Origin: Gammaproteobacteria bacterium BRH_c0
GTDB taxonomy: Bacteria > Pseudomonadota > Gammaproteobacteria > Pseudomonadales > Porticoccaceae
Assembly (NCBI GenBank): GCA_000961645.1
Contig: LADM01000049.1
Span: forward strand, 1-64,000
Reading direction: 5' to 3'
DNA length: 64,000 nt
A model generated the notes under the pieces. The model saw only the letters and a program-made list of their open reading frames with translations, made no database searches and was not told the DNA's origin. Below are positions 45,111-63,453 of this stretch, piece by piece (within the stretch, counting starts at the first letter, position 1; every line of letters starts with the position of its first letter). The position numbers and the translations under genes were made by a program.

Positions 45111-45312
45111 GACAACCTCCAGGCTCTTGAGTTTTATAACATAGGCTAAAGACTGCGGATTTTAACTGGAATGGGGATGTGATTCTACTTGTGCTGGAGC
45201 TGGTTGTAGCTGACGGGAGGTGGCAAAAACAGTATTCCGTCAAACGGTTGCCCGGAATGTGGTGATTGAAATGCGACCCTGAAGTGGATTTTGAGCCTCT
45301 ACAGGAGCGAGC

Positions 45313-45753
45313 CTAGCGCTCCTTTCTCTCAAGCCTGTAGCGCTCTTTTTTGTCGGCGGGCATCTTTTCCCAACGTTCGCGTATCTGTTCCCTGCGCTCA
45401 GGAGGCATTCGCTCATAGCGCTCTTTTGCCTGGCGAATTCGCTCCTTGTCACGGGCTGGCAGGGATTCATATTTTTCCTTGCGCTGCCTGATCTGCTCCT
45501 GTTCGCGGGAATCCATGTCTTCCCAGCGCTTGCCCTTTGCGGCCAGTTGATAACTCTGGTCTGTGTGGGCTGTGTGGAAAACAGCGCTGCCATAGTAGGG
45601 AGGCACGAGATAGTTATCATCTGGATAGGTTTGTTGACGGTCACCACTTTGAACATAACTTTCTGCGTGGTGCCCACTGCCGGTGGCCGTGTTGGCGCAG
45701 ACGCCGACAGGGAGCAGGGCAACGGCAAGAGTGAGAAGGGCGGTGAGGCGCAT
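45313..45753 (-). CDS. DUF3106-type exported, charged helical protein
   Basis: From the ATG at 45753 the product is 146 residues. A signal peptide (RLTALLTLAVALLPVGVCA) is followed by a linker and a repeated charged helix: WEDMDSREQEQIRQRKEKY, LPARDKERIRQAKERYERM and MPPERREQIRERWEKM, a DUF3106 pattern. It is the third gene of the sigma-factor unit. The repeats suggest a periplasmic chaperone-like or sensor role akin to Spy/CpxP helices, by analogy only. Confidence 0.85.
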   Translation of the reverse strand: MRLTALLTLAVALLPVGVCANTATGSGHHAESYVQSGDRQQTYPDDNYLVPPYYGSAVFHTAHTDQSYQLAAKGKRWEDMDSREQEQIRQRKEKYESLPARDKERIRQAKERYERMPPERREQIRERWEKMPADKKERYRLERKER

Positions 45754-45754
45754 G

Positions 45755-46081
45755 TCAGCTCCGTTTCGCTGCGTCACTTTCAGCGAGCCAATAGAAAAAA
45801 TCGAGATTTTCATAAAACTCGGCATTCTCGGGAGTTAAGCGCTCCATACCTGATTGGCGCTGCTGATTGTCATCCACAGGAGCAACAACCAGTATCAGAG
45901 CGACAACAGAAGCTGTCACCATTCCCAAGGCCGGAACCATAAAGCGCGGCAAATGAAATCGGCGCCGGGCCGACATTGCCTGACGTCTGGCATTGACCAG
46001 CTGCTGGGCGACAGAGTCATCCAGATTGTGCTCAGCTTCTCGCAGTTGTTCGCGCAGAGCCTGTTCAAACGTGTTCATCAT
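45755..46081 (-). CDS. DUF3619-type membrane protein, putative anti-sigma partner
   Basis: The 108-residue product has a cytoplasmic N-terminal helix region (FEQALREQLREAEHNLDDSVAQQLVNARRQA), one transmembrane helix (FMVPALGMVTASVVALILVVA) and a short periplasmic tail. It overlaps the sigma-factor gene by 17 bases and ends one base before the DUF3106 gene. That topology and position fit an anti-sigma factor, though DUF3619 has no proven role I can name. Confidence 0.82.
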   Translation of the reverse strand: MMNTFEQALREQLREAEHNLDDSVAQQLVNARRQAMSARRRFHLPRFMVPALGMVTASVVALILVVAPVDDNQQRQSGMERLTPENAEFYENLDFFYWLAESDAAKRS

Positions 46082-46661
46082 AGTGCTCCTTCAACGCTTC
46101 CTTGAGGGATTGTAGCGCACGGAAATAATGGGTTTTGACGCTGCCCTCTGAACATTTCATCGAGGCAGCGGTGTCTGCTGTGGACAATCCTTCCCAGCAG
46201 CGCAACATAAAGGCCTGTTGCTGGCGCAGTGGCAGGGCAGCAATGGCTGCCGACAGCGCCTCCATACTCTGCCCCTGTTCCACCTGGTGAGCGGGATTGT
46301 TGCTGGCAACATCCGCCACCTGCTGGAACAGGTCTGGTTCATCCTGGGCATCAGAGTTGAAACCAGTGAGCCAGCCGGTGAAACGATTTCGTACCTTGCG
46401 ATGGCGGTGAACATCCAGAATGCGGTTTTGCAGGATCTTGAAGAACAGGGGCCGCCATTCACCCACCGGCTTGTGGCTGTACTTCCTGACCATAACCAGC
46501 ATGGCATCCTGAACCGTATCCATCGCATCATCCTGATTACCCAGTGACACCCTGGCCATCAGAAATGCCCTGCGCTCTACCGCTGCGAGGAATTCATTGA
46601 GGCTGCCGAATTCAGGTTCATCGCAGCTGTCAGACCGGTTGCTCACCAGGGGCATATCCAC
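46065..46661 (-). CDS. ECF-type RNA polymerase sigma factor
   Basis: The 198-residue product has sigma region 2 (AFLMARVSLGNQDDAMDTVQDAMLVMVRKY, WRPLFFKILQNRILDVHR) and region 4 (ALPLRQQQAFMLRCWEGLSTADTAASMKCSEGSVKTHYFRALQSL). It forms a unit with the DUF3619 and DUF3106 genes. It may direct a cell-envelope response controlled by the downstream membrane protein. Confidence 0.92.
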   Translation of the reverse strand: MDMPLVSNRSDSCDEPEFGSLNEFLAAVERRAFLMARVSLGNQDDAMDTVQDAMLVMVRKYSHKPVGEWRPLFFKILQNRILDVHRHRKVRNRFTGWLTGFNSDAQDEPDLFQQVADVASNNPAHQVEQGQSMEALSAAIAALPLRQQQAFMLRCWEGLSTADTAASMKCSEGSVKTHYFRALQSLKEALKEHYDEHV

Positions 46662-46667
46662 CCGCTA

Positions 46668-46997
46668 TCATCTTCCATGATAGGGGTGGTGCAGGATTTC
46701 GTTGAGCAGGTATATGCCACCCAGCACCTCCAGGGTATTGTCGCGCCGGTAATCACGGTGAATGATTACCCGGTCACGGCCGCGGTAATGACGTGCGTGC
46801 GGAGCATAATAGTGTTTCTTGCTGTAGCTATGGTGGCGGTCATAGCCTTTGTGATAACCCCTGTCATAATCGCGTCGATGGTGATTCGATCGATAATCAT
46901 GGTGCTTTGAGTGATAACCACGATCACGATCAGCCATGGCTGGCGCCGTCATCATCACAGCAACAAGAAGAAGTGCGGCAGAAAGATACTTGTTCAT
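46668..46997 (-). CDS. His/Tyr/Arg-rich exported protein (RcnB-like appearance)
   Basis: From the ATG at 46997 the product is 109 residues with a signal peptide (KYLSAALLLVAVMMTAPAMA). The mature part is dense in His, Tyr, Arg and Asp (GYHSKHHDYRSNHHRRDYDR, then HHSYSKKHYYAPHARHY) before a short conserved-looking tail (LEVLGGIYLLNEILHHPYHG). The composition suggests periplasmic metal or polyanion binding. It ends 6 bases before the sigma-factor start codon region, so it may be upstream in the same transcript. Confidence 0.75.
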   Translation of the reverse strand: MNKYLSAALLLVAVMMTAPAMADRDRGYHSKHHDYRSNHHRRDYDRGYHKGYDRHHSYSKKHYYAPHARHYRGRDRVIIHRDYRRDNTLEVLGGIYLLNEILHHPYHGR

Positions 46998-47075
46998 GAT
47001 GTCCCATCCCTTTGTTGGTGTCTCACTGACCAAAAACGGTGGAAACTGTGATCCGTTGACCGGGTCACAAAAAAC

Positions 47076-47894
47076 TTAGCTCAAGTCGAATTCGGCCCAG
47101 ACAGGGCAGTGATCGGAGGGTTTGAGCATCGCCCTGGCCACATGATCGATTCCGGCGGCTGTTTGTTTGTCCAGCAACGGTTTGGTGGCCAGTATCAGGT
47201 CAATCCGCAAACCCCGTTTTGGGCTTTGCTCAAACCCCCTGCTGCGGTAGTCAAACCAGGAATAGCGCTGCTCGCCTTCGGCCGGGTGCTGGTGTTCATA
47301 GGCATCTGCAAGTCCCCAGTCCGCCAGCTTGCCCAGCCATTCCCGTTCCTCAGGCAGAAAACAGCATTTGCCTTCGCTCAACCAGCGTTTGCGGTTGTTA
47401 TCGCCAATGCCAATATCCTTGTCCAACAGTGCAACATTCATGTCGCCCATGACCACGATCTGCTCATCCGCTGAGTGATTACGGGCCAGATGCTCGAGAA
47501 GATTGTGATAAAAGGCCTGTTTGGCAGGAAACTTCGACGGGTGGCTGCGGTTTTCTCCCTGAGGGAAGTAACCATTGTAGACATGCAAGGGGCCGCAGGG
47601 TGTTTCCAGCGTCACCCGCACAAGTCGTCGTTGGGCATCCTCGCCATCGGCGGGGAAGCCGCACTGGGTAAACAGGGGAGCCTGACGGTACAGCAGCGCT
47701 ACGCCATAGTGGCCCTTCTGACCATGGAAGGTGCTTTGATAGCCCTGGTCGTGAATGACATCGAGGGGGAACAGTTCGTCCGCCACTTTGGTTTCCTGCA
47801 AGCCCATCACATCCGGGGCGTGGCTGGCGATTACCGCCTCCAGCTGCTCGAGGCGGGCGCGGATGCCGTTGACATTGAAGGAGACAAACTTCAT
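47076..47894 (-). CDS. xthA: Exodeoxyribonuclease III
   Basis: The 272-residue product starts KFVSFNVNGIRARLEQLEAV, with DVMGLQETKVADELFP (metal Glu), VYNGYFPQGENR, VMGDMNVALLDKDIG, RIDLILAT and SDHCPVWAEFDL (catalytic Asp-His) at the end. This is an AP endonuclease and 3'-5' exonuclease of base-excision repair. Its ATG overlaps the prc stop by 4 bases. Confidence 0.95.
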   Translation of the reverse strand: MKFVSFNVNGIRARLEQLEAVIASHAPDVMGLQETKVADELFPLDVIHDQGYQSTFHGQKGHYGVALLYRQAPLFTQCGFPADGEDAQRRLVRVTLETPCGPLHVYNGYFPQGENRSHPSKFPAKQAFYHNLLEHLARNHSADEQIVVMGDMNVALLDKDIGIGDNNRKRWLSEGKCCFLPEEREWLGKLADWGLADAYEHQHPAEGEQRYSWFDYRSRGFEQSPKRGLRIDLILATKPLLDKQTAAGIDHVARAMLKPSDHCPVWAEFDLS

Positions 47895-50002
47895 TGCTTT
47901 TCGCGGGCCTCGACTACCATTGCCGGTGCGGTATTGCTCAGCAGAATCTCGTCTACCAGAATGAGGCCTGCCTCTTTCAGGAGCGGGTCATCTTCCAGGG
48001 GGATTTCTTCATCCTCCGGTTTTTCCTCGGCTACTTCATCCTCATCGTCTTCCAGCGGGTTATCCTTTTTCCAGTCTTCGACCGTGGGGTAGGGCTCCAG
48101 TCCCTTGGCTGTCCGGCGCTTGTTTTCCAGGGCGAGCATGGCGTTTTCACCATCCTTGATTTCCTGCAAGCGCGCTTCGAGATTCAGTGAGACCTCCTTG
48201 ATGGACATGCGCTCCTTGCGGTATGCCAACTCGTCGACCAGATACTTGAAGTCGGGATCGTTGGCAATGCGCTGTTCATGGAGGCTCTTCAAGCGCGGCA
48301 CATGGGGTTGGAAGTTCTGGTGACGGCTGACCGGGATGCCGTGAATCTTGTCCCACGGCAGAGCGTGTTTCTCGCTGCTTTCGCCAATTTCATCGATATT
48401 GTAGAGCGACGGGAAACCGATATCCGGCAGTACCCCGCGATGCTGGGTACTTTCGCCGGAAACGCGGTAGAACTTTGACTCGGTCAGCTTGAGCTGACCC
48501 TCAGGCAACGGCAGCAGGGCCTGAACTGTGCCCTTGCCAAAGGTTTGGGTTCCCACCACCAACCCGCGACCGTAGTCCTGAATGGCGCCGGCAAAAATTT
48601 CCGATGCGGACGCACTTAGGCGGTTGATCAGCACCAGCAGCGGACCATCATAGAGCGGGGCGGAGCGGGAGCGATTCTGGCGCGAAATCATCTGGTTGGC
48701 ATAGCGGATCTGCACAACCGGGCCGGGATTGATGAACAGGTCCGTCAGCGTCGTCGCCTCGTGCAGCGACCCGCCACCGTTGTTGCGAAGATCGATGATG
48801 ATGCCATCAACCTTTTGTGCCTGAAGCTCCTTGACGAGCTTGGTGACATCGCGGGTGGTGCTTTTGAAATTGGGGTCGCGTTTGTTGAACGCATCAAAAT
48901 CGATGTAAAAGGCCGGGATATCGATAACCCCGACCCGGAAGGTTTTATCGTCTTCCTCAAGGTCGATAATGCGGCTCTTGGCAGCCTGCTCTTCCAGCTT
49001 TACCTCATCGCGGATAATGGAAATAACTTTGTTGACACCAGCGCTCTCGCCCTTGGCCGGAATGATTTCAAGCCGTACCTTGGTGCCTTTTGAGCCGCGG
49101 ATCAGATCCACCACATCATCCAGGCGCCAGCCTACAACGTCCTGAATATCCTCATCTTCCTGGCCGACACCGACAATCACGTCCTGGGGGGCGAGCTCAC
49201 CCTGCTTGTCTGCCGGGCCAGCCGGCACAAGCCGCACAACCTTGGTGCTTTCATCGTCGGTTTGCAGCACAGCGCCGATTCCCTCCAGGGACAGGGACAT
49301 GCTGATATTGAAGTTTTCCAGCTGGCGGGGGGAAAAGTAGGTGGTGTGGGGGTCGTACAGCGTGGTAAACGCATTCATATAAAGCTGGTATACATCCTCG
49401 CTGTCCATATCCTTGATACGCTTGATCTGGTTTTTGTAGCGTTTCACCAGCAGCGTTTTGGCGTCATCGGGTTCCTTGTCGGCAACCAGCAGGCGTACAT
49501 AGCTGTCCTGTACGCGCTTGCGCCACAGATCGTCCAGTTCCTTGTCGGTACTCAGCCACTGCTTTGCATCCGGATCAATGACCATGGTCTCATCGGTGGT
49601 CAGGTCAAAGGGTTCTGGTTTTTCCAGCAGGGCAATGTTCTTCTCAAGGCGCTTGAGCACTCGCTGCTGGTAATCCTTGAAAATAACGAATGCCGGGGAA
49701 AGATCACCCTGCTTCATCAGATCATCAAGACCCGCATCCCACTTGCGGTTGTATTTGTCGATATGGGATTGCAGCAGATAGATGCGAGACGGGTCGAGGG
49801 AGTCGAGATAGTTGGAGAGGAAATCCCGCGACAGCGAGTCGTCCACCGGAATGGTGCTGTAGTGCTTGGCGCCCAGTTTTTCGAGCAGCTCAAGGGTCGT
49901 TTCGACCTGCTTGTCGGTAAAGGCCAAGGGTTCAGGAGCAGCCCACACGCCAGTGCAGGACAGGCAAATCAGCAGGAGGCAAGACAGTAGCTTCAACTTC
50001 AT
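47891..50002 (-). CDS. prc: Tail-specific (C-terminal processing) protease
   Basis: From the ATG at 50002 the product is 703 residues with a signal peptide (KLKLLSCLLLICLSCTGVWA). An N-terminal helical domain, a PDZ domain around GIGAVLQTDDESTKVVRLVP and the S41 core follow, with the Ser-Lys dyad in SASASEIFAGAIQDYGRGLV and TFGKGTVQ. Prc degrades periplasmic proteins with nonpolar C-termini and trims PBP3. The C-terminal region contains an acidic stretch (PLEDDEDEVAEEKPEDEEI). It is coupled to xthA. Confidence 0.96.
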   Translation of the reverse strand: MKLKLLSCLLLICLSCTGVWAAPEPLAFTDKQVETTLELLEKLGAKHYSTIPVDDSLSRDFLSNYLDSLDPSRIYLLQSHIDKYNRKWDAGLDDLMKQGDLSPAFVIFKDYQQRVLKRLEKNIALLEKPEPFDLTTDETMVIDPDAKQWLSTDKELDDLWRKRVQDSYVRLLVADKEPDDAKTLLVKRYKNQIKRIKDMDSEDVYQLYMNAFTTLYDPHTTYFSPRQLENFNISMSLSLEGIGAVLQTDDESTKVVRLVPAGPADKQGELAPQDVIVGVGQEDEDIQDVVGWRLDDVVDLIRGSKGTKVRLEIIPAKGESAGVNKVISIIRDEVKLEEQAAKSRIIDLEEDDKTFRVGVIDIPAFYIDFDAFNKRDPNFKSTTRDVTKLVKELQAQKVDGIIIDLRNNGGGSLHEATTLTDLFINPGPVVQIRYANQMISRQNRSRSAPLYDGPLLVLINRLSASASEIFAGAIQDYGRGLVVGTQTFGKGTVQALLPLPEGQLKLTESKFYRVSGESTQHRGVLPDIGFPSLYNIDEIGESSEKHALPWDKIHGIPVSRHQNFQPHVPRLKSLHEQRIANDPDFKYLVDELAYRKERMSIKEVSLNLEARLQEIKDGENAMLALENKRRTAKGLEPYPTVEDWKKDNPLEDDEDEVAEEKPEDEEIPLEDDPLLKEAGLILVDEILLSNTAPAMVVEAREKQ

Positions 50003-50235
50003 GAATTCAATTCTCGGTAGCGAGCGCACAGGGGGCAGTGTAACAAAAATGTCCGAGCTTAGACCTTTATGTAGCCAATGTTACTGCATTGATCCGTTGG
50101 GTGGATCGTGTGCTTGTGATTGCCCTTAGCAATGTATGGGCTTGGGGTTCGAGTTTCACGATCCAGGCCAGAGGCCGATAGGCAATTCAGAGAAGGATTT
50201 TTAAAGAGTTTATTAAAATCAATCGGTTGTACAGG

Positions 50236-51945
50236 TTATGAATCCCCGGCAGATGAATGCATACCCGTTTTCAGATAGTCCAGCACGTTCTGTACTTCTT
50301 CCAGTTTGCCGTTGTTGAGCCGCAGCACCCGATCTGCTACCGCCAGGCTGGCGGGGCGGTGAGTAATCAGGATTACAGTACGCTGGGCAAAAATTTCGCG
50401 ACAATCCTGTAGTAATTCTGCTTCGCCAGTTGGATCAAACATTGAGGTCGCTTCATCAAGGACAAAGACAGGCGGATTCTTTAACAGCGCTCGAGCCAGG
50501 GATAATCGCTGGCGCTGACCACCTGAGAGCTTCAGCCCCTGGTCTCCTATCAAGGTTTGATAACCATTGGGTAACTGCTGGATAAAGGTATGGGCACGGG
50601 CAGTACGGGCAGCATTTTCAATGTCTTCCTGGCTCGCAAAAGCCTTGCCCCAGCCGATATTCTCGGCAACAGTGCCGTTCAATAGCAGGGTGTGCTGGGC
50701 TACCAGGCCAATCTGAGAGCGAACGCTGTTCAGGGATACACTGCGAATATCAACGCCATCTATGGTGATAGCTCCACTTGCGGGGTCGATCAGCCGCATC
50801 AAGAGGTGGGCCAGGGTGCTCTTGCCGGCGCCGTTTTCACCGACAATAGCCACTGTTTCTCTGCCCTTGATGGTCAGATCCAGGCTATCGAATAGCGGTT
50901 GCTGGCTCGATGGATACCCAAATGAAACAGCCTGAAACCTGATCTCACCTGCAGTAACGGTGAGAGGCTCAAGATGTAGTTCCTGGGGTTCAGGCTGCTG
51001 ATCAAGAAAATCGAGAATTCGTTCTGATGCCCCAAGTGTTTTCTGCAGCTCACCATAAACATTCGCCAGCTGGCCCAGTGGTTGATTCAGCAACATGGCA
51101 AACAGCAATAAACTCACCAGGTTTGCCGGGGTGAGATCGCCTGCCTCAATCGCCGAATAACCAAGCCATACAAGAATAAGCAAACCCAACCCGGCAAGCA
51201 GGCCAATAACCGGGGGAAGCATGGTGTAGATGAGCAGCTGCCGCTTGGAAAGGGTCAGTAGGTGGCTGTTCTTGATCTCAAAACCCTGTAGCTCCTGCGC
51301 CTCCCGGGTGAAGGACTTGATGGTTGGCAGCAGGCCCAGATTTTCCTCTGCATGAGCAACCAGATTCCCATAGGAATCTACCCACTGGCGAGATAAAGGC
51401 CTGATTTTTCTGCCAATAATTTTAATTGAGAGAAAATATACTGGCAACAAGGCCAGGGTGATGGTTGCAATCTTTACGTTCAGCCAGAGCATCATGCCGG
51501 CAGCACCAATAAATGTAATGCCCAGCGGCAATATCTGTACTAGCGTGCCCGTTACGAAGTTGCTGACAATGGCTGAATCATGGGTAAGGATGCTGAGCAC
51601 GTTGCCGCGCTTTTGTTCATCGTAATAACTCACAGGCAGTAATTGCAGGTGTTCATACAGGCGTGAGCGCAGGCGGGCCAGAACTTCTTCTGCTGTCCTG
51701 CCAGTTATGTATGCTGTGGCAAAACCCAGTGCGCTGCGAAGCATCAGCAAGCCAACCCAGAACATTATCAATATTTGCAAGGAGTCAAAAAAGCCGCCCT
51801 CTGCCCCCAGTATGTGGCTTGTCAGCTGGCCTGCAATCCAGGGGTTGAGGAGGTTGATAAAGCTGCCTGCAACCAACAGCAGCAGGCAAGCCGCCAGAGT
51901 TTTCCTGGGGGGGGATATAACAGACAGTAGACGGGTGAATTTCAT
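50236..51945 (-). CDS. ABC exporter of the lasso-peptide cluster (D protein)
   Basis: The 569-residue product from ATG 51945 (upstream in-frame starts at 51981 and 52002) has six N-terminal transmembrane helices and a C-terminal ATPase with Walker A GENGAGKST, signature KLSGGQRQRLSLARALL and Walker B VFVLDEATSMFD. Its position after the kinase gene and its half-transporter form match lasso D proteins, which pump out the mature peptide and give self-immunity. There is no C39 peptidase domain, as expected because B2 removes the leader. Confidence 0.9.
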   Translation of the reverse strand: MKFTRLLSVISPPRKTLAACLLLLVAGSFINLLNPWIAGQLTSHILGAEGGFFDSLQILIMFWVGLLMLRSALGFATAYITGRTAEEVLARLRSRLYEHLQLLPVSYYDEQKRGNVLSILTHDSAIVSNFVTGTLVQILPLGITFIGAAGMMLWLNVKIATITLALLPVYFLSIKIIGRKIRPLSRQWVDSYGNLVAHAEENLGLLPTIKSFTREAQELQGFEIKNSHLLTLSKRQLLIYTMLPPVIGLLAGLGLLILVWLGYSAIEAGDLTPANLVSLLLFAMLLNQPLGQLANVYGELQKTLGASERILDFLDQQPEPQELHLEPLTVTAGEIRFQAVSFGYPSSQQPLFDSLDLTIKGRETVAIVGENGAGKSTLAHLLMRLIDPASGAITIDGVDIRSVSLNSVRSQIGLVAQHTLLLNGTVAENIGWGKAFASQEDIENAARTARAHTFIQQLPNGYQTLIGDQGLKLSGGQRQRLSLARALLKNPPVFVLDEATSMFDPTGEAELLQDCREIFAQRTVILITHRPASLAVADRVLRLNNGKLEEVQNVLDYLKTGMHSSAGDS

Positions 51946-52010
51946 GGGGGAAGATTGTATAGCAACCCCTAAAGTGCCCATAGGCGTATCTGTCACAGAC
52001 AAAGGGCCGA

Positions 52011-52832
52011 TTACAACGCTTTGGCGTGGGCGATAACCGCTTGCCGCACATCTGGTAAGTAATCGTAGCGACGTGGATAGTCGAGGCGGAAAAAACTGAC
52101 GCTCTTGACCAGATCAGTCAATTGGCCAAAGTGATGGGTCAGCATTGCCCGCTCTTCAATATCCAGCAGAAAAGAATGTCGCACAAGCTCGATAATCGCA
52201 TCCCGGCTGCTCACGGATTGGATCGAAATAGATGGCGTACTGCCATCACCTAACAAATATATAGCTCGCAATGGTCGTGGCTCACCGCAGTAAAGCACCG
52301 CATCACCAGCGAGAAATCTTGTTTTAGGTGTGTAATCTACAGGAGGTGACGATGGAGAGCCCTCTGGCATAAGAGCTTCATGTGAATCATGCCATAAGCG
52401 GATAGAAGGGTGGCTGGGCTGAGCTAGACATTTCCCGTTGATCAACTCCAGTTGCAGGCCGTCATCGGTCAGGAAACCATGGCCATTGGTTGCAAAGCTG
52501 CTTGTCAGAGTGGATTTGCCAGCGCCAGAAGCGCCAAGAAATGCAACTGACAAGTCATTGATTTCAATAGCGCCGCCGTGCAGCACCAGCTTGAACTGGC
52601 GGCTAAGGGCAAGGGGAAGGATTTGGTTGAGGTATAGATGGTCGATGGTCGACTTGGATACACCGAAATTTCGTGTGCAGGAAGTTTCCAGCCCGTCGGC
52701 TGCTATCCAGAACTCAGCCAACGCTGGAAAACTGATGATATAGCCTTGATCTGCGTGGAAGAAATTTGCCCACAAGGACCCATCAGGCATCAGCATTCGG
52801 TGAAAGGGGTGGCGTGCGGATTTACTGCTCAA
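52011..52832 (-). CDS. HPr-kinase-like protein of the lasso cluster (K protein)
   Basis: The 273-residue product has Walker A in FLGASGAGKSTLTSS followed by GHGFLTDDGLQLE, matching the HPr-kinase GH..(x)DD motif. In lasso clusters such kinases phosphorylate the precursor, typically a C-terminal Ser. The core here ends Lys-Leu-Asp, so the site must be another Ser (several in the core) or the role differs. The start appears to be TTG 52832 and is uncertain; ATG 52796 is possible. Confidence 0.85.
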   Translation of the reverse strand: MSSKSARHPFHRMLMPDGSLWANFFHADQGYIISFPALAEFWIAADGLETSCTRNFGVSKSTIDHLYLNQILPLALSRQFKLVLHGGAIEINDLSVAFLGASGAGKSTLTSSFATNGHGFLTDDGLQLELINGKCLAQPSHPSIRLWHDSHEALMPEGSPSSPPVDYTPKTRFLAGDAVLYCGEPRPLRAIYLLGDGSTPSISIQSVSSRDAIIELVRHSFLLDIEERAMLTHHFGQLTDLVKSVSFFRLDYPRRYDYLPDVRQAVIAHAKAL

Positions 52833-52946
52833 ATGCTATGCATTTCTCTTGATACATGAGACCCTTTTATGGTTCATGTTTCTACTGAAGCCTCAATAAA
52901 TGTTCAGAATGTCTATAGCCCATAACCTCTGATAGTTGGTAAGGCG

Positions 52947-53150
52947 CTAATCCAGCTTACACATAGACATGTCCCCGCCGACAGGGCAACCAATGCTGTG
53001 TGCCGAGCCATCATTACCTATAAAGCTGCCACCAGACTGGGTTATTGAGGCGACAGCACCAAAGCTAACTAAGACTGGCTTGTTGTAGTGAAGCTTGTTA
53101 GATTGGAAGACTAGTTCGCTCGATTTGGATTTGCTGCTATCTGATTGCAT
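52947..53150 (-). CDS. Lasso-peptide precursor (A peptide)
   Basis: From the ATG at 53150 (GAGG 8 bases upstream) the product is 67 residues. The leader has the RRE-recognition motif YNKP (residues 22-25), then VLVSFGAVASIT with the near-invariant Thr37 at -2. The predicted core (residues 39-67) starts SGGSFIGND, giving a 9-residue Ser1-Asp9 macrolactam, then a tail with Cys17 and Cys26 that could form a tail disulfide. Cleavage is predicted after Gln38. An in-frame GTG at 53171 overlaps the cyclase stop. It lies downstream of the cyclase gene. Confidence 0.88.
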   Translation of the reverse strand: MQSDSSKSKSSELVFQSNKLHYNKPVLVSFGAVASITQSGGSFIGNDGSAHSIGCPVGGDMSMCKLD

Positions 53151-53170
53151 TGTCTGATCCTCAGTTTCCA

Positions 53171-54988
53171 CTATAGGATGGAATTCTTACTCAACCACTC
53201 ATCAAGTGCAATAGGCAGTAAGATAAAGGCACTCCAAAAGGTCGATTCTTTCCCCTTGCCAGCGCAATAGTGGTCGTATGCAACCAAGTATTTATCCATA
53301 TTGATGTAGTTCTTACTCGCGACTATCTTGAGATCATTCGGTGCTCTTGTGTACATGCCTGCCATGATTTTCGTTCGTAGTATATCTCCAGGTAACCCAT
53401 ATTTGGGTCTGGTAAGTATTTCTACTGGCAATTGCTTGTGCATTGCTTTTCTTAGTATTCGTTTATTGTGCTTAATAAAGTTTGGCAGAGTCATTGCGTA
53501 TTCGACCAAGCGTATATCCAAGAATGGATAGACAACTCTTAAGGGTAAATTGAGTACTTCATACGCTCTGAAATGATGAGTGAGCCATGGGCGTCCAAGC
53601 TGAGACTTGCTATCTGTCTTGATATAGATTTCCCAGTGTTTGTCCCAGCGTTCTTCAAGATTTGTCCGCTGAGCAAACTCAGCGTCGATCCAGGAGGGGA
53701 ATGGCAGGATACGGGACACTCTTCTAGGGGAGAACAGTCTGCGGAGTCCTAAGCTGCGTATGGTTTTATGAAACTTTAGGTGAAAGTACAGTTCTGTTGC
53801 CAAGCGGCCAATTTCTCCTTTTTGGAGGAGTTGGATGTAATACTCTCCTGGGTCGGGAAATAGCGCATCTCCCATAAATCCGCTTGTTATAATCTTTGCG
53901 CCCTTTCTAGTCATCTCTGTTAGCGATTTGTGACTGTACGCTATGTTCTGACTTGGGCAAGGCTGATCGGTAGCAAGTTCTGAATCTTCATCAGAGCTAA
54001 AAAGGTATGCATTTCCCAGATTGCTGTAAGTGATAGGAATGCCAATAAATTTCGCAACCAAGTCAGCGAAGTGGGCTTCGCAGTCCTCAGGTATTAGTGG
54101 TTGACATGTGGAAGTGTAGGCGTTGACTGTATTGCCGTTGAACTTCATGTATGAAGTTGCAACAGCCGCGATCGAAGTGGAATCCATGCCGCCACTCATT
54201 TCTACAGCAATATTATTAGTGCGTACTCGGTCTTTGACAGCTTCACAAAAAATCGCATGGAATTCTTGAGCATATTCTTCTTCTGTCAATCTTGGTGCTA
54301 CCTCAGGCTCATCTAATTGCCAGTAGGTTTTTCTTGCTGCGGGGCTTGTTCCTCTAATCTCTAGCCGATTCCCTCCTGGTAGCTTATGAATATACTGGTA
54401 AATGGACATATCGCTATCCATAGGGCAACCGAACATCAGAAAGTCTCCGATTGCGGTCTCATTCAATGTTCGTTTAACTTGGGGGTGAACTAGAAGCGCG
54501 GTCACCTCGCTGGCAAAAAGAAAGCAATTATTTGTTTGTACATAATACAGTGGGCGAATGCCAAAATGATCACAGGCGCAGAATACTGAAGACTCGACTT
54601 CATCCCATATGGCAAACGCAAAATCACCGATTATGTAATCCAGAAGCCTCTCCCCAAAAACGGCATAGGCATGAAGAATCAACTCAGCATCGGTGGTTGT
54701 TGCAGTCAGGTGCCGACCATGGGATCTGAGTGTGTTGCGCAATTCCTGCTGACCATCAATACGTGCATCGGCGACGATCCAGATTTTCCCGTCCAGCGAG
54801 CAGGGCTGTTTTTCCAAAGGTTGGCTGGAGTCCATTTGCAGTAGTGCATGTGCAAAGCCAACATGTTGTGCAGACCACAGGCCTATGCCATCTGGTGCCC
54901 TGCCTTTTAATGTGTCTATCATCCCTTCCAGCAGCGACTCATTTACGGGGCTGCCATCAAGATTGATGATGCCGGCGATACAGCTCAT
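53171..54988 (-). CDS. Lasso-peptide cyclase, asparagine-synthase-like (C protein)
   Basis: The 605-residue product has an N-terminal Ntn/GATase-like domain starting SCIAGIINLDGSPVNESLL, where the catalytic Cys2 of Asn synthetase is replaced by Ser. The C-terminal ATP-pyrophosphatase domain has the PP-loop VEMSGGMDSTSIAA. In lasso biosynthesis it adenylates the Asp/Glu side chain and closes the macrolactam. The gene is visibly more AT-rich than its surroundings, hinting at acquisition by transfer. Confidence 0.93.
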   Translation of the reverse strand: MSCIAGIINLDGSPVNESLLEGMIDTLKGRAPDGIGLWSAQHVGFAHALLQMDSSQPLEKQPCSLDGKIWIVADARIDGQQELRNTLRSHGRHLTATTTDAELILHAYAVFGERLLDYIIGDFAFAIWDEVESSVFCACDHFGIRPLYYVQTNNCFLFASEVTALLVHPQVKRTLNETAIGDFLMFGCPMDSDMSIYQYIHKLPGGNRLEIRGTSPAARKTYWQLDEPEVAPRLTEEEYAQEFHAIFCEAVKDRVRTNNIAVEMSGGMDSTSIAAVATSYMKFNGNTVNAYTSTCQPLIPEDCEAHFADLVAKFIGIPITYSNLGNAYLFSSDEDSELATDQPCPSQNIAYSHKSLTEMTRKGAKIITSGFMGDALFPDPGEYYIQLLQKGEIGRLATELYFHLKFHKTIRSLGLRRLFSPRRVSRILPFPSWIDAEFAQRTNLEERWDKHWEIYIKTDSKSQLGRPWLTHHFRAYEVLNLPLRVVYPFLDIRLVEYAMTLPNFIKHNKRILRKAMHKQLPVEILTRPKYGLPGDILRTKIMAGMYTRAPNDLKIVASKNYINMDKYLVAYDHYCAGKGKESTFWSAFILLPIALDEWLSKNSIL

Positions 54989-55003
54989 GTAAGTTTCATG
55001 CTT

Positions 55004-56128
55004 TTATAAGCCATAGCGCATCGCCAAGCCCTGAACCAGAAATAGGGCCTCCTCGGTATTGGCAAAGCTATCATTGGCAGATTCAGCCAAATTTTGTGCA
55101 ATTTCCTGATTGCTTTTTCCTTCTTTCATCTGTGATAGCACCTGCAAACTGTGTTGGCCTTGCAGGTTGAGGCCGGGGCGGTTGGCAGGAGCTATCTTGC
55201 GCAAGCGATCTATCTCATTGAGTTTGGAAAAGAAAGTGGAATGTCTGCGTGACTCAACCCCACAGGTGGCTGTCCATGTCCAGTCGCCACGAAAGGGCCT
55301 GTTAACTTTAATCGCAATGGTACTTGGTAGTGCAAGTTCGAGGGGGGGGTCAAGTGGCAGCATTACCGGGGACCAGTGAACATCCGGTTCGTCAGGATCC
55401 GTGCTCAGCCATTGATCGCCTAGTTTGATCCTGATCCAGAAAAGCAGTCCATGGCAGGTTCCCTTTTTGTTCGTGTGAAGGCTGGTTTCGCCGATACAGT
55501 TCCCGTCATTGGCGGTTGTCAGATCGATTGCCGCAATCGCTTGCCCATTGCTGAGCTTGCCCGCCTTGAGGCTTTTCCTGTCAAGCCAGATAATTTCGTT
55601 GGCGGCGAGGTGGCGGCAGGATGAGTAGTCAAGCCCATGATGTGGCTTTGACCAAATACCAATATGTTTTTCATGGGCCTCCGGTGCGGATGCGGGAGCT
55701 ACCATCAGTTCAGCACTGTCAGGTATCAGCTTGCCATCGGGTTTCAGGTAGCGATTGCGCGCATAAAATAGCGAAGGTAAAAGGTCTTCACTGAACAGCA
55801 AATTGCCCGTAAAAACCGAAACAATCAGATCAACCTGTTCTGGAAGGTCGATATCCTCAATTTTGCCTTCAAGGACCACGATCTTGTCATCAAGACCATT
55901 TGCCCTGGCAATATTCATGGCTGCTTTAACAATGGGCTCAGGTTCTACCAGGTAAACCCGCTTGGCACCTGCGGCGGCAGCTATTAACCCGAGCGCACCA
56001 ATGCCAGCGCCCAGATCCAGCACCACTGAATCCGGGGTAACAGCTGCTTTTATGGCCTCAGCATACATCCGGTTGCGGTATTCATCGAATGCCATGGAGC
56101 CTTGGGAATAAATGCTGGAATAGGACAT
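55004..56128 (-). CDS. PRMT-fold methyltransferase of the lasso cluster
   Basis: The 374-residue product has a PRMT-like start (MAFDEYRNRMYAEAIKAAV), SAM motif VLDLGAGIGALGLIAAAAGAK and acidic loop VYLVEPEP. VSVFTGNLLFSEDLL aligns with the PRMT double-E loop but has Val for the first Glu. A VHWSPVMLPLDPP segment corresponds to the THW loop. The last about 60 residues (LQVLSQMKEGKSNQEIAQNL) look like an added helical, PqqD-like or HTH domain. The predicted core contains no Arg, so the acceptor is not arginine in the peptide. Confidence 0.85.
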   Translation of the reverse strand: MSYSSIYSQGSMAFDEYRNRMYAEAIKAAVTPDSVVLDLGAGIGALGLIAAAAGAKRVYLVEPEPIVKAAMNIARANGLDDKIVVLEGKIEDIDLPEQVDLIVSVFTGNLLFSEDLLPSLFYARNRYLKPDGKLIPDSAELMVAPASAPEAHEKHIGIWSKPHHGLDYSSCRHLAANEIIWLDRKSLKAGKLSNGQAIAAIDLTTANDGNCIGETSLHTNKKGTCHGLLFWIRIKLGDQWLSTDPDEPDVHWSPVMLPLDPPLELALPSTIAIKVNRPFRGDWTWTATCGVESRRHSTFFSKLNEIDRLRKIAPANRPGLNLQGQHSLQVLSQMKEGKSNQEIAQNLAESANDSFANTEEALFLVQGLAMRYGL

Positions 56129-56198
56129 ATTGCTCTGCTTGTTCGATTAGTGCAGGTTTACTTTGAGGCGAATCAGCATCAATGCGTGAACCGCAAGG

Positions 56199-56660
56199 TT
56201 AGTACTGCTTCAACAGGTCCGGGAATGCAGAGTACTCACTTTCCTGATTACCCAGGACCATGGCTTGATATTCCACCCAGGCATGGGCCAGCAAAGGGGC
56301 ACTGTGAGGCTTTATGCCAATTCTGATTTGCGCCTCCAGGCCTTTTTTGCGCAACAGCCAGCAAAGAGCCAGTGATTGGGGAAAGCAGCTTCCGCGAGGC
56401 AGGCAGTGATGCGCTGCAATTGCTGTTAGCTCTGCGCAGCGCTGTGTATAACCGGTTGCCTGTATCTTTATGTTCTGTTGGTTGCGGGCAATCGACACCT
56501 CTGGCTGGGCAATGCCCAGCATGCGTTTGGTACCCAGCAGGCGCAAGCCTGCCCAGCTTAGGAGAAGCAGGCATACCAGCTGCGCGAGGGTACAGCGTTC
56601 AGATGCAGGCAAGGCCCGCCACTTGCCAATCTTTCGATTGGCATCACTCCACAATGACAA
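56199..56660 (-). CDS. Lasso-peptide leader peptidase (B2 protein)
   Basis: The 153-residue product has a transglutaminase-like cysteine-protease core: LPRGSCFPQSLALCWLLRKKG with the catalytic Cys, and LLAHAWVEYQAM with the catalytic His. The usual acidic third residue about 12 positions after the His is Asn here. An N-terminal hydrophobic segment (LVCLLLLSWAGLRLL) could anchor it to the membrane. It cuts the leader after Thr-X with help from B1. It overlaps the B1 gene by 17 bases. Confidence 0.9.
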   Translation of the reverse strand: MSLWSDANRKIGKWRALPASERCTLAQLVCLLLLSWAGLRLLGTKRMLGIAQPEVSIARNQQNIKIQATGYTQRCAELTAIAAHHCLPRGSCFPQSLALCWLLRKKGLEAQIRIGIKPHSAPLLAHAWVEYQAMVLGNQESEYSAFPDLLKQY

Positions 56661-56913
56661 GGCCAGCCTCCGAGAGTTGTCCGACCAGAGTCAAAATATC
56701 TTCCCTCAGCTGCTCCAGGTCAACCTCGTACTCATTGATCAGTTGCTGGCAGGCCGCCTCAAGATTGCTATCGGACTGTAGTAGCTGCCAAAGACGAACA
56801 CCGACTCCGTCCAGGCCGAAATAGCTGGAACTGGCCAGATCAAGAATGACTCCCTCGCCACTGATTTCCTGAAAGAGGGCATCAGGTGAAATGGTTACAG
56901 ACCTAATTTGCAT
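56644..56913 (-). CDS. Lasso RRE protein, PqqD-like (B1 protein)
   Basis: The 89-residue PqqD-fold protein (SPDALFQEISGEGVILDLASSSYFGLDGVGVRLWQLL) starts with three beta-strands then helices with an acidic end. As the RiPP recognition element it binds the YxxP leader motif of the precursor and presents it to B2. It is the first gene of the cluster in transcription order, overlapping B2. Confidence 0.92.
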   Translation of the reverse strand: MQIRSVTISPDALFQEISGEGVILDLASSSYFGLDGVGVRLWQLLQSDSNLEAACQQLINEYEVDLEQLREDILTLVGQLSEAGLVIVE

Positions 56914-57161
56914 TGACAGCCTTGAGTTAAGTGCATGAAGTAGGAGATAGCCAAGTATTGCTGCTGATAGTGAATCATGCCCGGCATGCTGTGGGTGTTG
57001 CTTTAGTGAAATTAGACTATTGGCATGTGGTCGATTTGTCCAGCGCTGTCAGTGTATATCTTTACCTTGTTGAATCTTGCGAAGGTCTCTGGTTAAGCAC
57101 TATCCAGGCAACAAAGGCCGGTGCTATGATGGCCCTAACACCCATTCATCGGAGGTATCCT
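56914..57161. other. Divergent intergenic region between lasso and exopolysaccharide loci
   Basis: These 248 AT-rich bases have no supported gene. The promoters of both the lasso cluster (minus) and the exopolysaccharide locus (plus) should lie here. CGGAGG precedes ATG 57162. Confidence 0.5.
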
Positions 57162-57686
57162 ATGAAAGCACTAAAGATCTTGGCCTGCGCAGCAGCCCCG
57201 CTGTTTCTGTTTGCCAGCACCAGCGTGAACGCCAGCCTGAGTGAGTCGGAACTGGAAATGCTCTTTGCCGAGTTGCAAGCCGAGGGCCGTGCTCCCCGAG
57301 ATACCATTGTCGAGTTGGTCGAAAAAGGCAATGACCTTGAGGTTGCGACTGGTTATACCGTTGCCAATGCCAGCAGCATTGGCCTGGCCGTTACCTACGC
57401 CCATGAAGGTGTTTGCCTCGCGCCAGATCAGGTGGCTGCCGAGGTTGTCGCCAAGCAAGCCGTCGACAGTTCTACCGAGCAGGCCCGCAATGCCGTGCAG
57501 GCCAGGGTGACCGAGACTCTCAACAACTTCGCCTCAGGTGCCTGCGACCGGCTGGTGGATGAGCGCAACACTGAGAGCCAGGCCTTTGCCGGAGCAGGCG
57601 CAGATTCAGGCGCAGGAACCACGGCAGGAGGCGGAGCCACCCCGCCAGAAGTTGATCCTCCTGTTGATATCAGCCCAAGCCAGTAA
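57162..57686 (+). CDS. Exported protein of unknown function at the exopolysaccharide locus
   Basis: The 174-residue product from ATG 57162 has a signal peptide (KALKILACAAAPLFLFASTSVNA). A helical acidic region (SESELEMLFAELQAEGRAPR) and Ala/Val-rich middle follow, with two cysteines (GVCLAPD, GACDRLV). The tail is low-complexity Gly/Ala/Pro (GAGADSGAGTTAGGGATPPE). It precedes the polymerase gene by 100 bases. I do not recognise it; the placement suggests a role in exopolysaccharide assembly or surface attachment. Confidence 0.7.
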   Translation: MKALKILACAAAPLFLFASTSVNASLSESELEMLFAELQAEGRAPRDTIVELVEKGNDLEVATGYTVANASSIGLAVTYAHEGVCLAPDQVAAEVVAKQAVDSSTEQARNAVQARVTETLNNFASGACDRLVDERNTESQAFAGAGADSGAGTTAGGGATPPEVDPPVDISPSQ

Positions 57687-57721
57687 TTTGCCATTCAGGT
57701 AGTTCCCATGGGGTTGCTGGT

Positions 57722-57794
57722 CTCTATACCCATTCAGTACATATCCTGTATAGAGGAAGGTATGCAGTCATGACGGCTGCACCGTCATGACTGC
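57722..57794 (+). promoter_or_regulatory. Stacked hairpins over the polymerase ribosome-binding site and start codon
   Basis: CTCTATAC (57722-57729) pairs with GTATAGAG (57748-57755), covering the AGGAAGG site (57754-57760). GCAGTCATGACGG (57764-57776) pairs perfectly over 13 bp with CCGTCATGACTGC (57782-57794), holding the ATG at 57787. A six-codon frame (ATG 57770 to TGA 57790) overlaps that ATG. Confidence 0.75.
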
Positions 57795-59193
57795 CGGTTC
57801 CGCAGATCGTATTCTTTTCTGGCTCTTTATTGCCCTGGTTTTCTGGGCGCCTTTACCCTTTGCTTCCAATCGACCCTGGGCGTTGTCACTGCTGGCATTC
57901 GCAATGATGGCGATTCTGGCGTGCTGGCTGGTACTTTATGGCTTCGGTAAATCGTCTGTGTCGAGTCGGGTGCGCAGGCGGGGTAAATGGCCTCTGATAT
58001 TGCTGGCACTGATGCCATTATGGGCTCTGATCCAAACACTGTCGTTGCCGCGGGAAGTGGTTTCCATCCTGTCTCCCCGCGCCGAGCACCTGCATCTGCC
58101 GGGAGCCTGGATTCCCCTTACTCTTGATCTGGCCGGAACTCGCCAATACCTGCTCGCGGGCATTACCTGCTGGTGTGCTTTTGCGCTGGTTCTGACTCTT
58201 GTGAATTGCGCTCGCCGCACTGAAATTCTGCTATGGACATTGGTGGCCAGTGGCAGTTTTCAGGCAATTTACGGCTCTCTGATGGTGCTGACTGGCCTTG
58301 AATGGGGGTTTTTAATTGAAAAATATTCAGGCAAGGGTGTGGCTACCGGCACCTTTGTCAATCGCAACCATCTGGCAGGTTACCTGGTGATGTGCCTGTC
58401 AGCCGGTACCGGACTGTTGCTGTCACAACTGTCTGCCCAGGAGGCAAGTAGCCTTCGCGATTTTTTCAGAAAGACATTGAATGCGTTGCTCTCCAACAAG
58501 ATTGTTATTCGTCTGTTGTTGGCGATCATGGTGATTGCGCTGGTTCTAACCCGCTCAAGGATGGGCAATACGGCCTTTTTTACCGCCCTCGCCATTGCCG
58601 GACTGGTGGCTATGTTCTGTGGGCGAAAGTTCTCTCCCAAGCTGCTGGTACTGATTGGGAGTCTCTTCATCATTGATCTGATTATTGTTGGCCAATGGTT
58701 CGGGCTGGACCAGCTGGTGGAGCGTCTTGAAACTGCATCCCCAGAAGGCGAGTACCGGCTGGCAGTGCAGGGCAGGGGAGCGAATATTCTAGCAGATTTC
58801 CCCCTCACGGGCAGTGGCGGTGGCAGTTATCACAGTGTGTTTACCTACTACCAGGACGCCGGAGACTGGGGCTATTATCGCCACGCCCATAATGACTACC
58901 TGGAAATTGCAGCCGAAATGGGTATTCCGGTTCTTCTTGCTCTGGGCGTGTTTTGCCTGTTTGTTCTGTACCGGGCACTCCAGTTGCAAAGACCAGATCA
59001 CTCCAGGCTCCAGCGAGGGGTCGGATTCAGCCTAGTTATGGTGTTTGTCTGGCTGGTGATCCATTCTACGGTTGATTTCAACCTACAGATCCCGGCCAAC
59101 AGCATGACGCTCTGTGTCCTGTTTGCCCTGGCATTTGCCAGCCTTTTGCCTTCAGGCAAGTCTGCAGAGCATTATCGAGGAGCAATAGCGTGA
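57787..59193 (+). CDS. O-antigen ligase/polymerase-family membrane protein (Wzy-like)
   Basis: The 468-residue, about 12-helix protein (FWLFIALVFWAPLPFA; ALSLLAFAMMAILACWLVLY) has the PF04932-type extracellular loop with FVNRNHLAGYL and RHAHNDYLEIAAEMG, the conserved HxxNDYLE feature. It polymerises or ligates lipid-linked glycan units on the periplasmic face. In this locus with Wza/Wzc-like genes it is the likely exopolysaccharide polymerase. The start codon is sequestered in a hairpin. Confidence 0.88.
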   Translation: MTAGSADRILFWLFIALVFWAPLPFASNRPWALSLLAFAMMAILACWLVLYGFGKSSVSSRVRRRGKWPLILLALMPLWALIQTLSLPREVVSILSPRAEHLHLPGAWIPLTLDLAGTRQYLLAGITCWCAFALVLTLVNCARRTEILLWTLVASGSFQAIYGSLMVLTGLEWGFLIEKYSGKGVATGTFVNRNHLAGYLVMCLSAGTGLLLSQLSAQEASSLRDFFRKTLNALLSNKIVIRLLLAIMVIALVLTRSRMGNTAFFTALAIAGLVAMFCGRKFSPKLLVLIGSLFIIDLIIVGQWFGLDQLVERLETASPEGEYRLAVQGRGANILADFPLTGSGGGSYHSVFTYYQDAGDWGYYRHAHNDYLEIAAEMGIPVLLALGVFCLFVLYRALQLQRPDHSRLQRGVGFSLVMVFVWLVIHSTVDFNLQIPANSMTLCVLFALAFASLLPSGKSAEHYRGAIA

Positions 59194-59280
59194 CTTCCTT
59201 TCTCACTTGATGCTAGAAAAATGCTGGATAAGCCCTTAAGATAACCCGACATTTACCCTGAGCTCACGCCTTGCCGGACT

Positions 59281-60465
59281 ATGAAAATGACAATTAAACA
59301 CGTGCCATTAAAATTGACTGCCGCCATCGCAATACTGGGCTTAAGCCCTCTGACACTGGGCCAGGAGAGTGCCTCAGGACTCAGCTATGGGCTGGATTCA
59401 GAGCTGCGTTACGACGACAACATCTACCGCTCCGAGAGTTCGGAAAAGGCCTCGTTTATCCTGGCCGCATCGCCTTTTGTGAAGGCTACCTTTCTGAATC
59501 AGGGTAACAGCTATCAGGTGGGCTACCGCCTCAACTACGCTGAATACTTCAGCGCCAGTGCTGACAGCTATGACGACCATGAGTTTAGCGCCGATATCAA
59601 TCATCGCTTTACAACCCGGCAGGCGATCAATGCCAAGGTCAGTCACAAGTTGCTCACCGAACAGCGCGGCACAGGGTTCAGTGAAGAGCCCAACACCCTT
59701 GTGCGAAGTCCCGATGACTATGATGCAACCCAGTTCGCGTTTACTTATTTTATCGGTGCGCCCCAGGCCCGCGCCCGGGTTGAACTGAATGCCACCCGCG
59801 ACGTTCTCAGCTTTGATTCCAGCTATGTCGGCGATACCCGCGATTACAAGGCTGATCAACTAGGCGCTCTGCTGCGCTACCGGGTTGGCGCACGCACCGA
59901 CCTGCTTGCGGAATATCGCAATCTCAATGTGAGCTACGACAACACGCCCCTTGATGCCAATGGCCAGCCCTTTGATCTCGACAGTGATGAAGATTACTAC
60001 CTGGCGGGTATTTCCTGGGAACTAACGGCCAAAACCAGGGGAGAAGTCCGCGTTGGTCGCAGTGAGCGCGATTACGACGATTTCTCCAGCTCAAATACCC
60101 ACTGGGAAGCGGAGTTGGAATGGCGTCCTCTAAGTTATTCTGAATTCGTGCTCACCAGTGGTCGTGAATCGCTGGAGACCTACGGAACAGGGCGTTTTAT
60201 CAACGTCAAGAAACACTCCCTGGCCTGGAACCATGCCTGGCGTGGCAGGGTGTCTACCAAGCTGCAGGCCGGCGTGACCAACGATGATTATGAGGATAGT
60301 TCGCGCCGGGACGATCAGACTTTCTGGCTGGCCGAAGTATTCTATGAGCCCAGGACCTGGCTGAAGTTGAGCGGTGGTGTTGCCTACAATGAAAACGACT
60401 CCAATTTCGAGCTCGTCAACTATGAGCGCAATCTGGTGTTTATCAAGGCCAATGTTGAGCTCTGA
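59281..60465 (+). CDS. Outer-membrane beta-barrel protein of exopolysaccharide locus
   Basis: The 394-residue product has a signal peptide (KLTAAIAILGLSPLTLGQ), then alternating aromatic/charged strands throughout (SYGLDSELRYDDNIYRSES, YQVGYRLNYAEYFSAS, LLAEYRNLNVSYDNTPL), ending with a strand (NLVFIKANVEL). This is the pattern of a large 16-18 strand barrel of the PF10082-type family found in polysaccharide loci. It likely supplies the outer-membrane channel for the short Wza-like protein encoded next. Confidence 0.85.
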   Translation: MKMTIKHVPLKLTAAIAILGLSPLTLGQESASGLSYGLDSELRYDDNIYRSESSEKASFILAASPFVKATFLNQGNSYQVGYRLNYAEYFSASADSYDDHEFSADINHRFTTRQAINAKVSHKLLTEQRGTGFSEEPNTLVRSPDDYDATQFAFTYFIGAPQARARVELNATRDVLSFDSSYVGDTRDYKADQLGALLRYRVGARTDLLAEYRNLNVSYDNTPLDANGQPFDLDSDEDYYLAGISWELTAKTRGEVRVGRSERDYDDFSSSNTHWEAELEWRPLSYSEFVLTSGRESLETYGTGRFINVKKHSLAWNHAWRGRVSTKLQAGVTNDDYEDSSRRDDQTFWLAEVFYEPRTWLKLSGGVAYNENDSNFELVNYERNLVFIKANVEL

Positions 60466-60486
60466 TCTGTACTTATTTGAGGCTTC

Positions 60487-61068
60487 ATGAAACAACAGAC
60501 GCCACGACTATTTGGTCACCTGCTGACGCTGTTGCTGGCGATCTGCATCACAAGTGTTGCAGCCCGGGCTACAGCCCAGGAGCGTGTTGAGGGAGAGGGT
60601 GGATCCGAAGAGTACTCTCTGGGTGCAGGCGACATAATTCGTATCCACGTTTTCGGCGAGCCGGATCTCACCTTTGATTCCGTCCTGGTAGGGGAGTCGG
60701 GGAAGATTTCCTACCCATTTCTGGGTGAACTCACTATCAAGGGCCTTAGTCTTTCAGGTCTTGAGGGGGTTCTGATGGCTGGTCTCAAGCCCGACTACCT
60801 CATCGACCCGAAAATCTCCGTCAGCATCGTTGAATACAGGCCATTTTTTATCAACGGTCAGGTCAACAATCCCGGCAGTTATCCCTATCAGCCCGGGCTG
60901 CGCCTGCGGCAGGCCATCTCCCTGGCGGCAGGGCTGACAGAAAGAGCCTCGCAGTCAAAAATCTATGTGGTGCATGACAATGACCCTTCCGCAAAACGGC
61001 GACGGGTGGATCTCAACTACAATGTCCGCCCTGGCGACACCATAACGATCGAAGAAAGCTTTTTCTAA
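60487..61068 (+). CDS. Polysaccharide export protein, short Wza-like
   Basis: The 193-residue product has a signal peptide (LFGHLLTLLLAICITSVAARA). A PES domain (YSLGAGDIIRIHVFGEPDLT, SYPFLGELTIKGLSL) and one SLBB domain (FFINGQVNNPGSYPYQPGLR, LRQAISLAAGL) follow. There is no lipobox Cys and no C-terminal amphipathic helix, unlike full Wza, so it is expected to be periplasmic and to dock on the neighbouring barrel. It is 21 bases after the barrel gene. Confidence 0.92.
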   Translation: MKQQTPRLFGHLLTLLLAICITSVAARATAQERVEGEGGSEEYSLGAGDIIRIHVFGEPDLTFDSVLVGESGKISYPFLGELTIKGLSLSGLEGVLMAGLKPDYLIDPKISVSIVEYRPFFINGQVNNPGSYPYQPGLRLRQAISLAAGLTERASQSKIYVVHDNDPSAKRRRVDLNYNVRPGDTITIEESFF

Positions 61069-61168
61069 TGACCTGTAGGCTGGGCCGCTCCCGCTCATCA
61101 GATGCAGCTCAACGGGTGAAGAGAAGAATTGAAAGGCTCCGGATAGTCCACAGGACAGGCAGACACGA

Positions 61169-63415: not shown

Positions 63416-63453
63416 ATGCTCCTGTGCTGTTATGAGCATCCCGATGGCTATCG

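Follow-up and report, generated by a model that had tools for sequence, protein, structure and literature searches.

Seven genes on the minus strand of the window (the whole stretch of DNA analysed, 64,000 nucleotides from Gammaproteobacteria bacterium BRH_c0, contig LADM01000049.1) make up, as judged from their sequences, a complete lasso peptide cluster at positions 50236-56913 that includes both a kinase, K, and a PRMT-fold methyltransferase, M. We consider it likely that this cluster belongs to a distinct kinase-plus-methyltransferase lasso subfamily, in which K acts on a hydroxyl of the core rather than on the C-terminus, and M on a site other than arginine. The product is probably both phosphorylated and methylated, so that mass shifts of +80 and +14 are a sensible guess. 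Within the open literature, this appears so far to be an undescribed branch of lasso clusters, in which a PRMT-fold enzyme travels with K and with Met-rich peptides.

The gene order is B1-B2-M-C-A-K-D. B1 (56644..56913, 89 aa) is a PqqD-type RiPP recognition element (Pfam PqqD, 2.2e-17; NF033536 lasso PqqD, 2.8e-13), and the overlapping B2 (56199..56660, 153 aa, TTG start) is a transglutaminase-like leader peptidase (PF13471, Transglut_core3, 1.2e-17) that reaches 66.9 bits against NF033537, lasso_biosyn_B2, with a cut-off of 33. M (55004..56128, 374 aa) is a SAM methyltransferase (PRMT_C, 1.2e-10, plus Methyltransf_25) with a helical C-terminal extension (about residues 305-374), and is followed by the asparagine-synthetase-like lasso cyclase C (53171..54988, 605 aa), which carries the ATP motif SGGMDST (GATase_7, 1.3e-27; Asn_synthase, 4.7e-25; lasso cyclase NF033535, 5.6e-96, under the curated cut-off). 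B1, B2 and such a cyclase together are the signature of a lasso cluster. The precursor A (52947..53150, 67 aa) emerged from a motif search and a match to NF033528, 'lasso peptide' (2.5e-5), and K (52011..52832, 273 aa, TTG start) is an HPr-kinase-like peptide kinase (P-loop region of PF07475, 6.9e-6); the scores of both fall under the curated cut-offs (for K, the gathering cut-off), and their identification comes from context and motifs. D (50236..52002, 588 aa) is an ABC exporter with no peptidase domain (PF00664, ABC_membrane, 4e-48; PF00005, ABC_tran, 8.2e-34). Each member of the one-strand gene set named in the initial annotation is supported by Pfam/NCBIfam or motifs; the precursor does lie downstream of the cyclase, and, as also claimed there, no isopeptidase, TonB receptor or regulator gene was seen directly next to the cluster. 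An Rfam search of positions 44000-64000 gave no match, and promoter and terminator scans yielded matches not above chance level.

The ATG of A, at 53150, is preceded by GAGGA; an alternative GTG at 53171 would give 74 aa. The leader, MQSDSSKSKSSELVFQSNKLHYNKPVLVSFGAVASITQ, contains the full motif Y-x-x-P-x-L...G...T-Q, and the leader/core junction reads YNKPVLVSFGAVASITQ followed by SGGSFIGND. With the Y-x-x-P leader, Thr at -2 and Asp at core position 9 (Asp/Glu being allowed at 7-9), A has the features of a lasso precursor. Cleavage following Thr(-2)-Gln(-1) would release the predicted 29-residue core SGGSFIGNDGSAHSIGCPVGGDMSMCKLD (52950..53036, minus strand), in which Asp9 is the putative ring acceptor and a nine-residue Ser1-Asp9 ring is possible. 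The tail holds Cys17, Cys26 and Met23-x-Met25 (M-S-M-C), and the core, which lacks Arg, ends in CKLD, with Asp as the terminal residue. Two tail Cys are expected of class IV lasso peptides, and the tail may be bridged by a disulfide between Cys17 and Cys26. Pandonodin, a class IV peptide with a tail-tail disulfide, shares the long tail with two Cys, whereas the window disulfide is a prediction only, and the sections of PMC13352647 covered mention no kinase or methyltransferase for pandonodin.

The kinase tetrad H85-K106-D123-D124 is intact, H/K/D/D is invariant in the 6 aligned K proteins, and HprK was the sole type of match in a profile search of K against the PDB. The target of paeninodin-type lasso kinases is a C-terminal Ser, described as extremely conserved in the precursors that such kinases accompany (PMC9266682). 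The window shares with paeninodin and SyanK an HPr-kinase-like K, with His-Lys-Asp-Asp, within a B1/B2/C/D cluster, but those systems have no M, and the window core, ending in Asp, cannot bear a paeninodin-type C-terminal phosphoserine. The Bsf cluster of Bradymonas sediminis (PMC10368454) has split B1/B2, C, D, an HPr-kinase-like K, the catalytic H/K/D/D and a core ending in Asp, all as in the window, and BsfK, assisted by the RRE, phosphorylates Ser3 of that core. By contrast, Bsf encodes a nucleotidyltransferase, N, and no methyltransferase, and its leader has Ile(-2) where the window has Thr(-2); Bsf-type systems carry Ile/Val at this position and Ser/Thr at core position 3, which in the window is Gly, the nearest hydroxyl being that of Ser4. 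In the loci with M described below, a C-terminal Ser occurs in 3 of 23 cores versus 8 of 12 kinase-only cores (p = 0.002), and the ring Ser/Thr varies in position from 2 to 8, so that there is no single conserved phosphosite. Given the BsfK precedent and the rarity of a C-terminal Ser in these cores, a ring hydroxyl is to be expected; by analogy, Ser4 is the likelier target of K in the window, with Ser24 of the tail as the second choice.

A profile search of M against the PDB retrieved PRMT6, PRMT8, CARM1 and PRMT1 (best 3.2e-55), and Foldseek matched the AlphaFold model of M (pLDDT 82.7, six-row alignment) to PRMT6 (2.8e-27) and PRMT1 (3q7e, TM 0.85 over target). M retains the PRMT fold (in common with PRMT1, PRMT6 and CARM1 over residues about 2-275), the SAM-binding motif, D-x-x-R in the N-terminal region, the HW of the THW loop and, in the double-E loop, the second Glu. 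Unlike these enzymes, however, M possesses an extra C-terminal helical domain and has Val in place of the first double-E Glu (SVFTGNLLFSED versus SEWMGYCLFYES), a replacement found in M and in 9 of 9 close homologues aligned; in three more distant homologues the loop differs again. In PRMTs, the first of these Glu residues holds the guanidinium. Its loss, together with the Arg-free core, suggests that M is a PRMT fold without the arginine grip and probably no arginine methyltransferase; M thereby offers a direct way of testing whether this fold has been adapted to a substrate other than arginine. Arg is no common feature of the presumed targets either, being present in the cores of just 8 of 17 loci. 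Comparison of the C-terminal extension with the B1 profile, as a measure of RRE-likeness, gave a probability of 2.6 and an E-value of 0.017, and Pfam hints of winged-helix families in this region were marginal.

Relatives of M occur in two genomes of the window's own family (48% and 42% identity), one of which is a Porticoccaceae metagenome assembly; genome contigs scanned with an alignment of three M sequences yielded one assembly each from Thiobacillaceae, Betaproteobacteria and Haliea, and the remaining loci were found by searching the order, the phylum and three families. Once duplicates were removed (L016 equals L027, L017 equals L028 and L152 equals L026), 22 distinct loci encoded M with the C-terminal extension: the window, L024-L028, L055-L060, L151 and L153-L161, with M split across two reading stretches in L159. 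K was found in 21 of the 22, the exception, L157, being a truncated contig of 6.8 kb, and C in 20; precursor searches found none in L154, L159, L160 and L161 (truncated contigs or divergent precursors). As a control, we took 46 loci around lasso-B2 matches drawn from the phylum: about half contain K, and none has an M of the window's type. PRMT-like genes near two control loci (L103 and L140) were rejected as M, with the first Glu intact and the extension absent, and PRMT-like homologues without the extension (L061-L069) do not lie beside lasso genes. A search of plasmids for M relatives gave one weak match, annotated as an L11 methyltransferase. The two enzymes are thus conserved together with A/B/C; the initial annotation had named a lack of such co-conservation as refuting its reading, and this refutation fails. 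The pairing of kinase and methyltransferase, which it called uncommon, is indeed rare among lasso clusters, but it is also recurrent, across Gamma-/Beta-type and another class of Pseudomonadota.

The cores encoded in the M loci are rich in Met, which accounts for 71 of 588 residues in 23 cores versus 0 of 293 in 12 distinct kinase-only cores (Fisher 9e-14, a value inflated by the non-independence of relatives; p = 4e-7 with close ones collapsed). The precursor search made no use of Met, and the kinase-only set includes cores from Paracoccus, Sulfitobacter, Paenibacillus, Priestia, Antarctobacter and Halopiger plasmids. Met is present in 22 of the 23 cores (for example, GMSMGMGMGMGMN, MMGMGGMSMTGMGC and MVMIMGGMVMVMC), the exceptions to the pattern being one L027 core with no Met and one L025 core with Met in the ring only; a second L057 precursor, Met-free and located beside another cyclase, was excluded. 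The leaders of the same precursors contain 0 Met in 599 residues, start codon excluded. Furthermore, M-x-M spacing was observed 20 times versus 10.5 in shuffled tails, a count reached in 0 of 5000 shuffles (21 of 23 cores). This enrichment is an association with M, which makes the tail a candidate substrate only. It points to the Met-rich tail as the partner or substrate of M; the tail may be methylated by M, serve as a metal ligand or be linked to M indirectly. Only tentatively do we propose that M methylates the Met thioethers of the M-x-M tail or, alternatively, that a Met/Cys-rich tail binds metal with M serving it. Thioether methylation, if true, would give a phosphorylated lasso permanent sulfonium charges, and under either version the kinase-plus-M clusters would represent a lasso class whose peptide chemistry is new. 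Given the tight link of M to K and to Met-rich cores, the substrate and the order of steps can be tested in one refactored cluster.

If the cluster is expressed, as predicted, B1 would bind the Y-x-x-P leader and present the precursor. K would phosphorylate a core hydroxyl, most likely Ser4 of the future ring (cf. Ser3 of BsfK) or else Ser24, and M would methylate a non-arginine site, the leading candidates being the M-S-M tail and the new phosphate. In this predicted order, B2 would then cleave after Gln(-1), C would close the Ser1-Asp9 ring about the tail, a disulfide may form between Cys17 and Cys26, and D would export the product. For the predicted core, the calculated neutral monoisotopic mass is 2780.166 Da as a lasso, 2778.151 with the disulfide, 2858.117 with disulfide and phosphate, and 2872.133 when a methyl group is added as well (shifts of +79.966 per phosphate and +14.016 per methyl).

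Several other readings of M and K have to be weighed against this scheme. M could methylate the phosphate installed by K, which would account for M not being found without K; M and K are mostly near neighbours, and K, although present in 21 of 22 M loci, also occurs alone. A phosphate methyl ester would, however, leave the Met-rich tails without a reason, and PRMT-fold precedent is wanting, as we know of no phosphate methyltransferase with this fold. A second enzyme does decorate phosphoserine in pseudomycoidin (PMC9266682), and on balance we regard phosphate methylation as rather unlikely. Alternatively, both changes could fall at the C-terminus, with a paeninodin-like K acting on the terminal residue and M as a carboxyl O-methyltransferase of the StspM type. 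Indeed, the earlier lasso kinases, except BsfK, target a C-terminal Ser, the terminal Asp of the window core offers two carboxyls, and StspM and probably LasF, SAM methyltransferases in lasso clusters like M, form C-terminal methyl esters (PMC9266682). Yet a terminal Ser is missing from the window core and from 20 of the 23 cores of M loci, no kinase is reported with the lassomycin-type LasF and StspM, and these represent a different enzyme type, StspM having been modelled on mitomycin O-methyltransferase (PMC9266682) whereas M has the PRMT fold; we therefore hold a double modification of the C-terminus to be very unlikely.

M could also still be an Arg (or Lys/His) N-methyltransferase directed at some other protein, for instance a polysaccharide or export component, in keeping with its PRMT fold, the HW of its THW loop and its retained second double-E Glu. 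This is unlikely, with the first Glu replaced by Val throughout the close homologues, no Arg in the core, and M tied to lasso genes, several M loci having no polysaccharide genes nearby. Finally, the cluster itself could be decayed or mismatched, with C and A foreign to, and possibly incompatible with, the rest: their GC content is 46-48% (0.456 for C), while the other cluster genes lie at 51-55% and the window as a whole at about 56%, and C is just 24-36% identical to its relatives, against up to 62-64% for M, K and B1. However, all frames are open, the catalytic motifs and the leader are intact, and C is just as divergent in complete-looking sister loci, so that decay strikes us as highly improbable. 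The same figures suggest instead that the C-A cassette (52947-54988) is exchanged within a stable B1-B2-M-K-D frame.

The lasso methylations described in the covered sections of reviews up to June 2026 are C-terminal methyl esters and aspartimides formed by PIMT enzymes (PMC9266682, PMC13352647). In the latter case, LihM and TceM of the lihuanodin and cellulonodin-2 clusters are, like M, methyltransferases that tailor a lasso peptide, but belong to the PIMT family and form aspartimide on the folded lasso, whereas M has the PRMT fold (PMC9266682). A text search for 'PRMT' in the parts of these two reviews open to it found no mention, so that, to this extent, the loci define a recurrent lasso subfamily with a tailoring enzyme type absent from them. 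Metagenomic split-B clusters have been cloned with 'phospho- or methyltransferases, where present' (PMC12670498, 2025), and related clusters may therefore have been seen without being described.

The cluster is flanked on one side by a Prc/Tsp protease and, judging by sequence, an exonuclease-III-like gene, and on the other by a small secreted protein and a polysaccharide export locus (57162-63415). The same export set (small secreted protein, Wzy-like ligase, beta-barrel porin, Wza-like and Wzz/Wzc-like proteins) adjoins the cluster in four genomes (window, L026, L027 and L055). Kinase-only lasso clusters, those on plasmids included, are also often beside polysaccharide genes, so that this link seems to be a trait of kinase-type lasso clusters in general.

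In some precursors, a Peptidase_S74 (endosialidase chaperone) domain immediately follows the core: L024 (11523-11933; 8.9e-10), L025 (2982-3425; 1.4e-6) and likewise L058 (8404-8790). Of the 18 M loci with a precursor, 3 have such a fusion, and the control loci have none; in L024 and L025 the domain starts at an S-D-x-x-x-K site. In phage tailspikes, S74 domains release themselves by cleavage before the Ser of this site. By analogy, the S74 domain may cleave itself from the lasso precursor, in which case the lasso C-terminus would be set there. We found no paper in the open literature combining 'lasso peptide' and 'endosialidase', and these fusions suggest an unreported way of defining a lasso C-terminus.

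Individual loci show further variation. At L024, an NTP_transf_5 nucleotidyltransferase (4865-6001) lies beside the K+M lasso cluster, which may combine a kinase, a pseudomycoidin-type N enzyme and a methyltransferase; such a partner was rejected as a general part of the module, the only strong match being in this locus. A single M and K are accompanied, within about 10 kb, by two or three lasso cyclases and their different precursors in L155 and L057, an arrangement suggesting that the same tailoring enzymes serve several lasso peptides. Beyond the M loci, plasmid pHALXA01 of the haloarchaeon Halopiger xanaduensis (L168, 18828-33712) encodes B1, B2, a cyclase, an exporter, an HPr-kinase-like protein and a nucleotidyltransferase, along with a possible lasso precursor with the core QVNKEGVASDQWSENTPLLGSIQPAPT.
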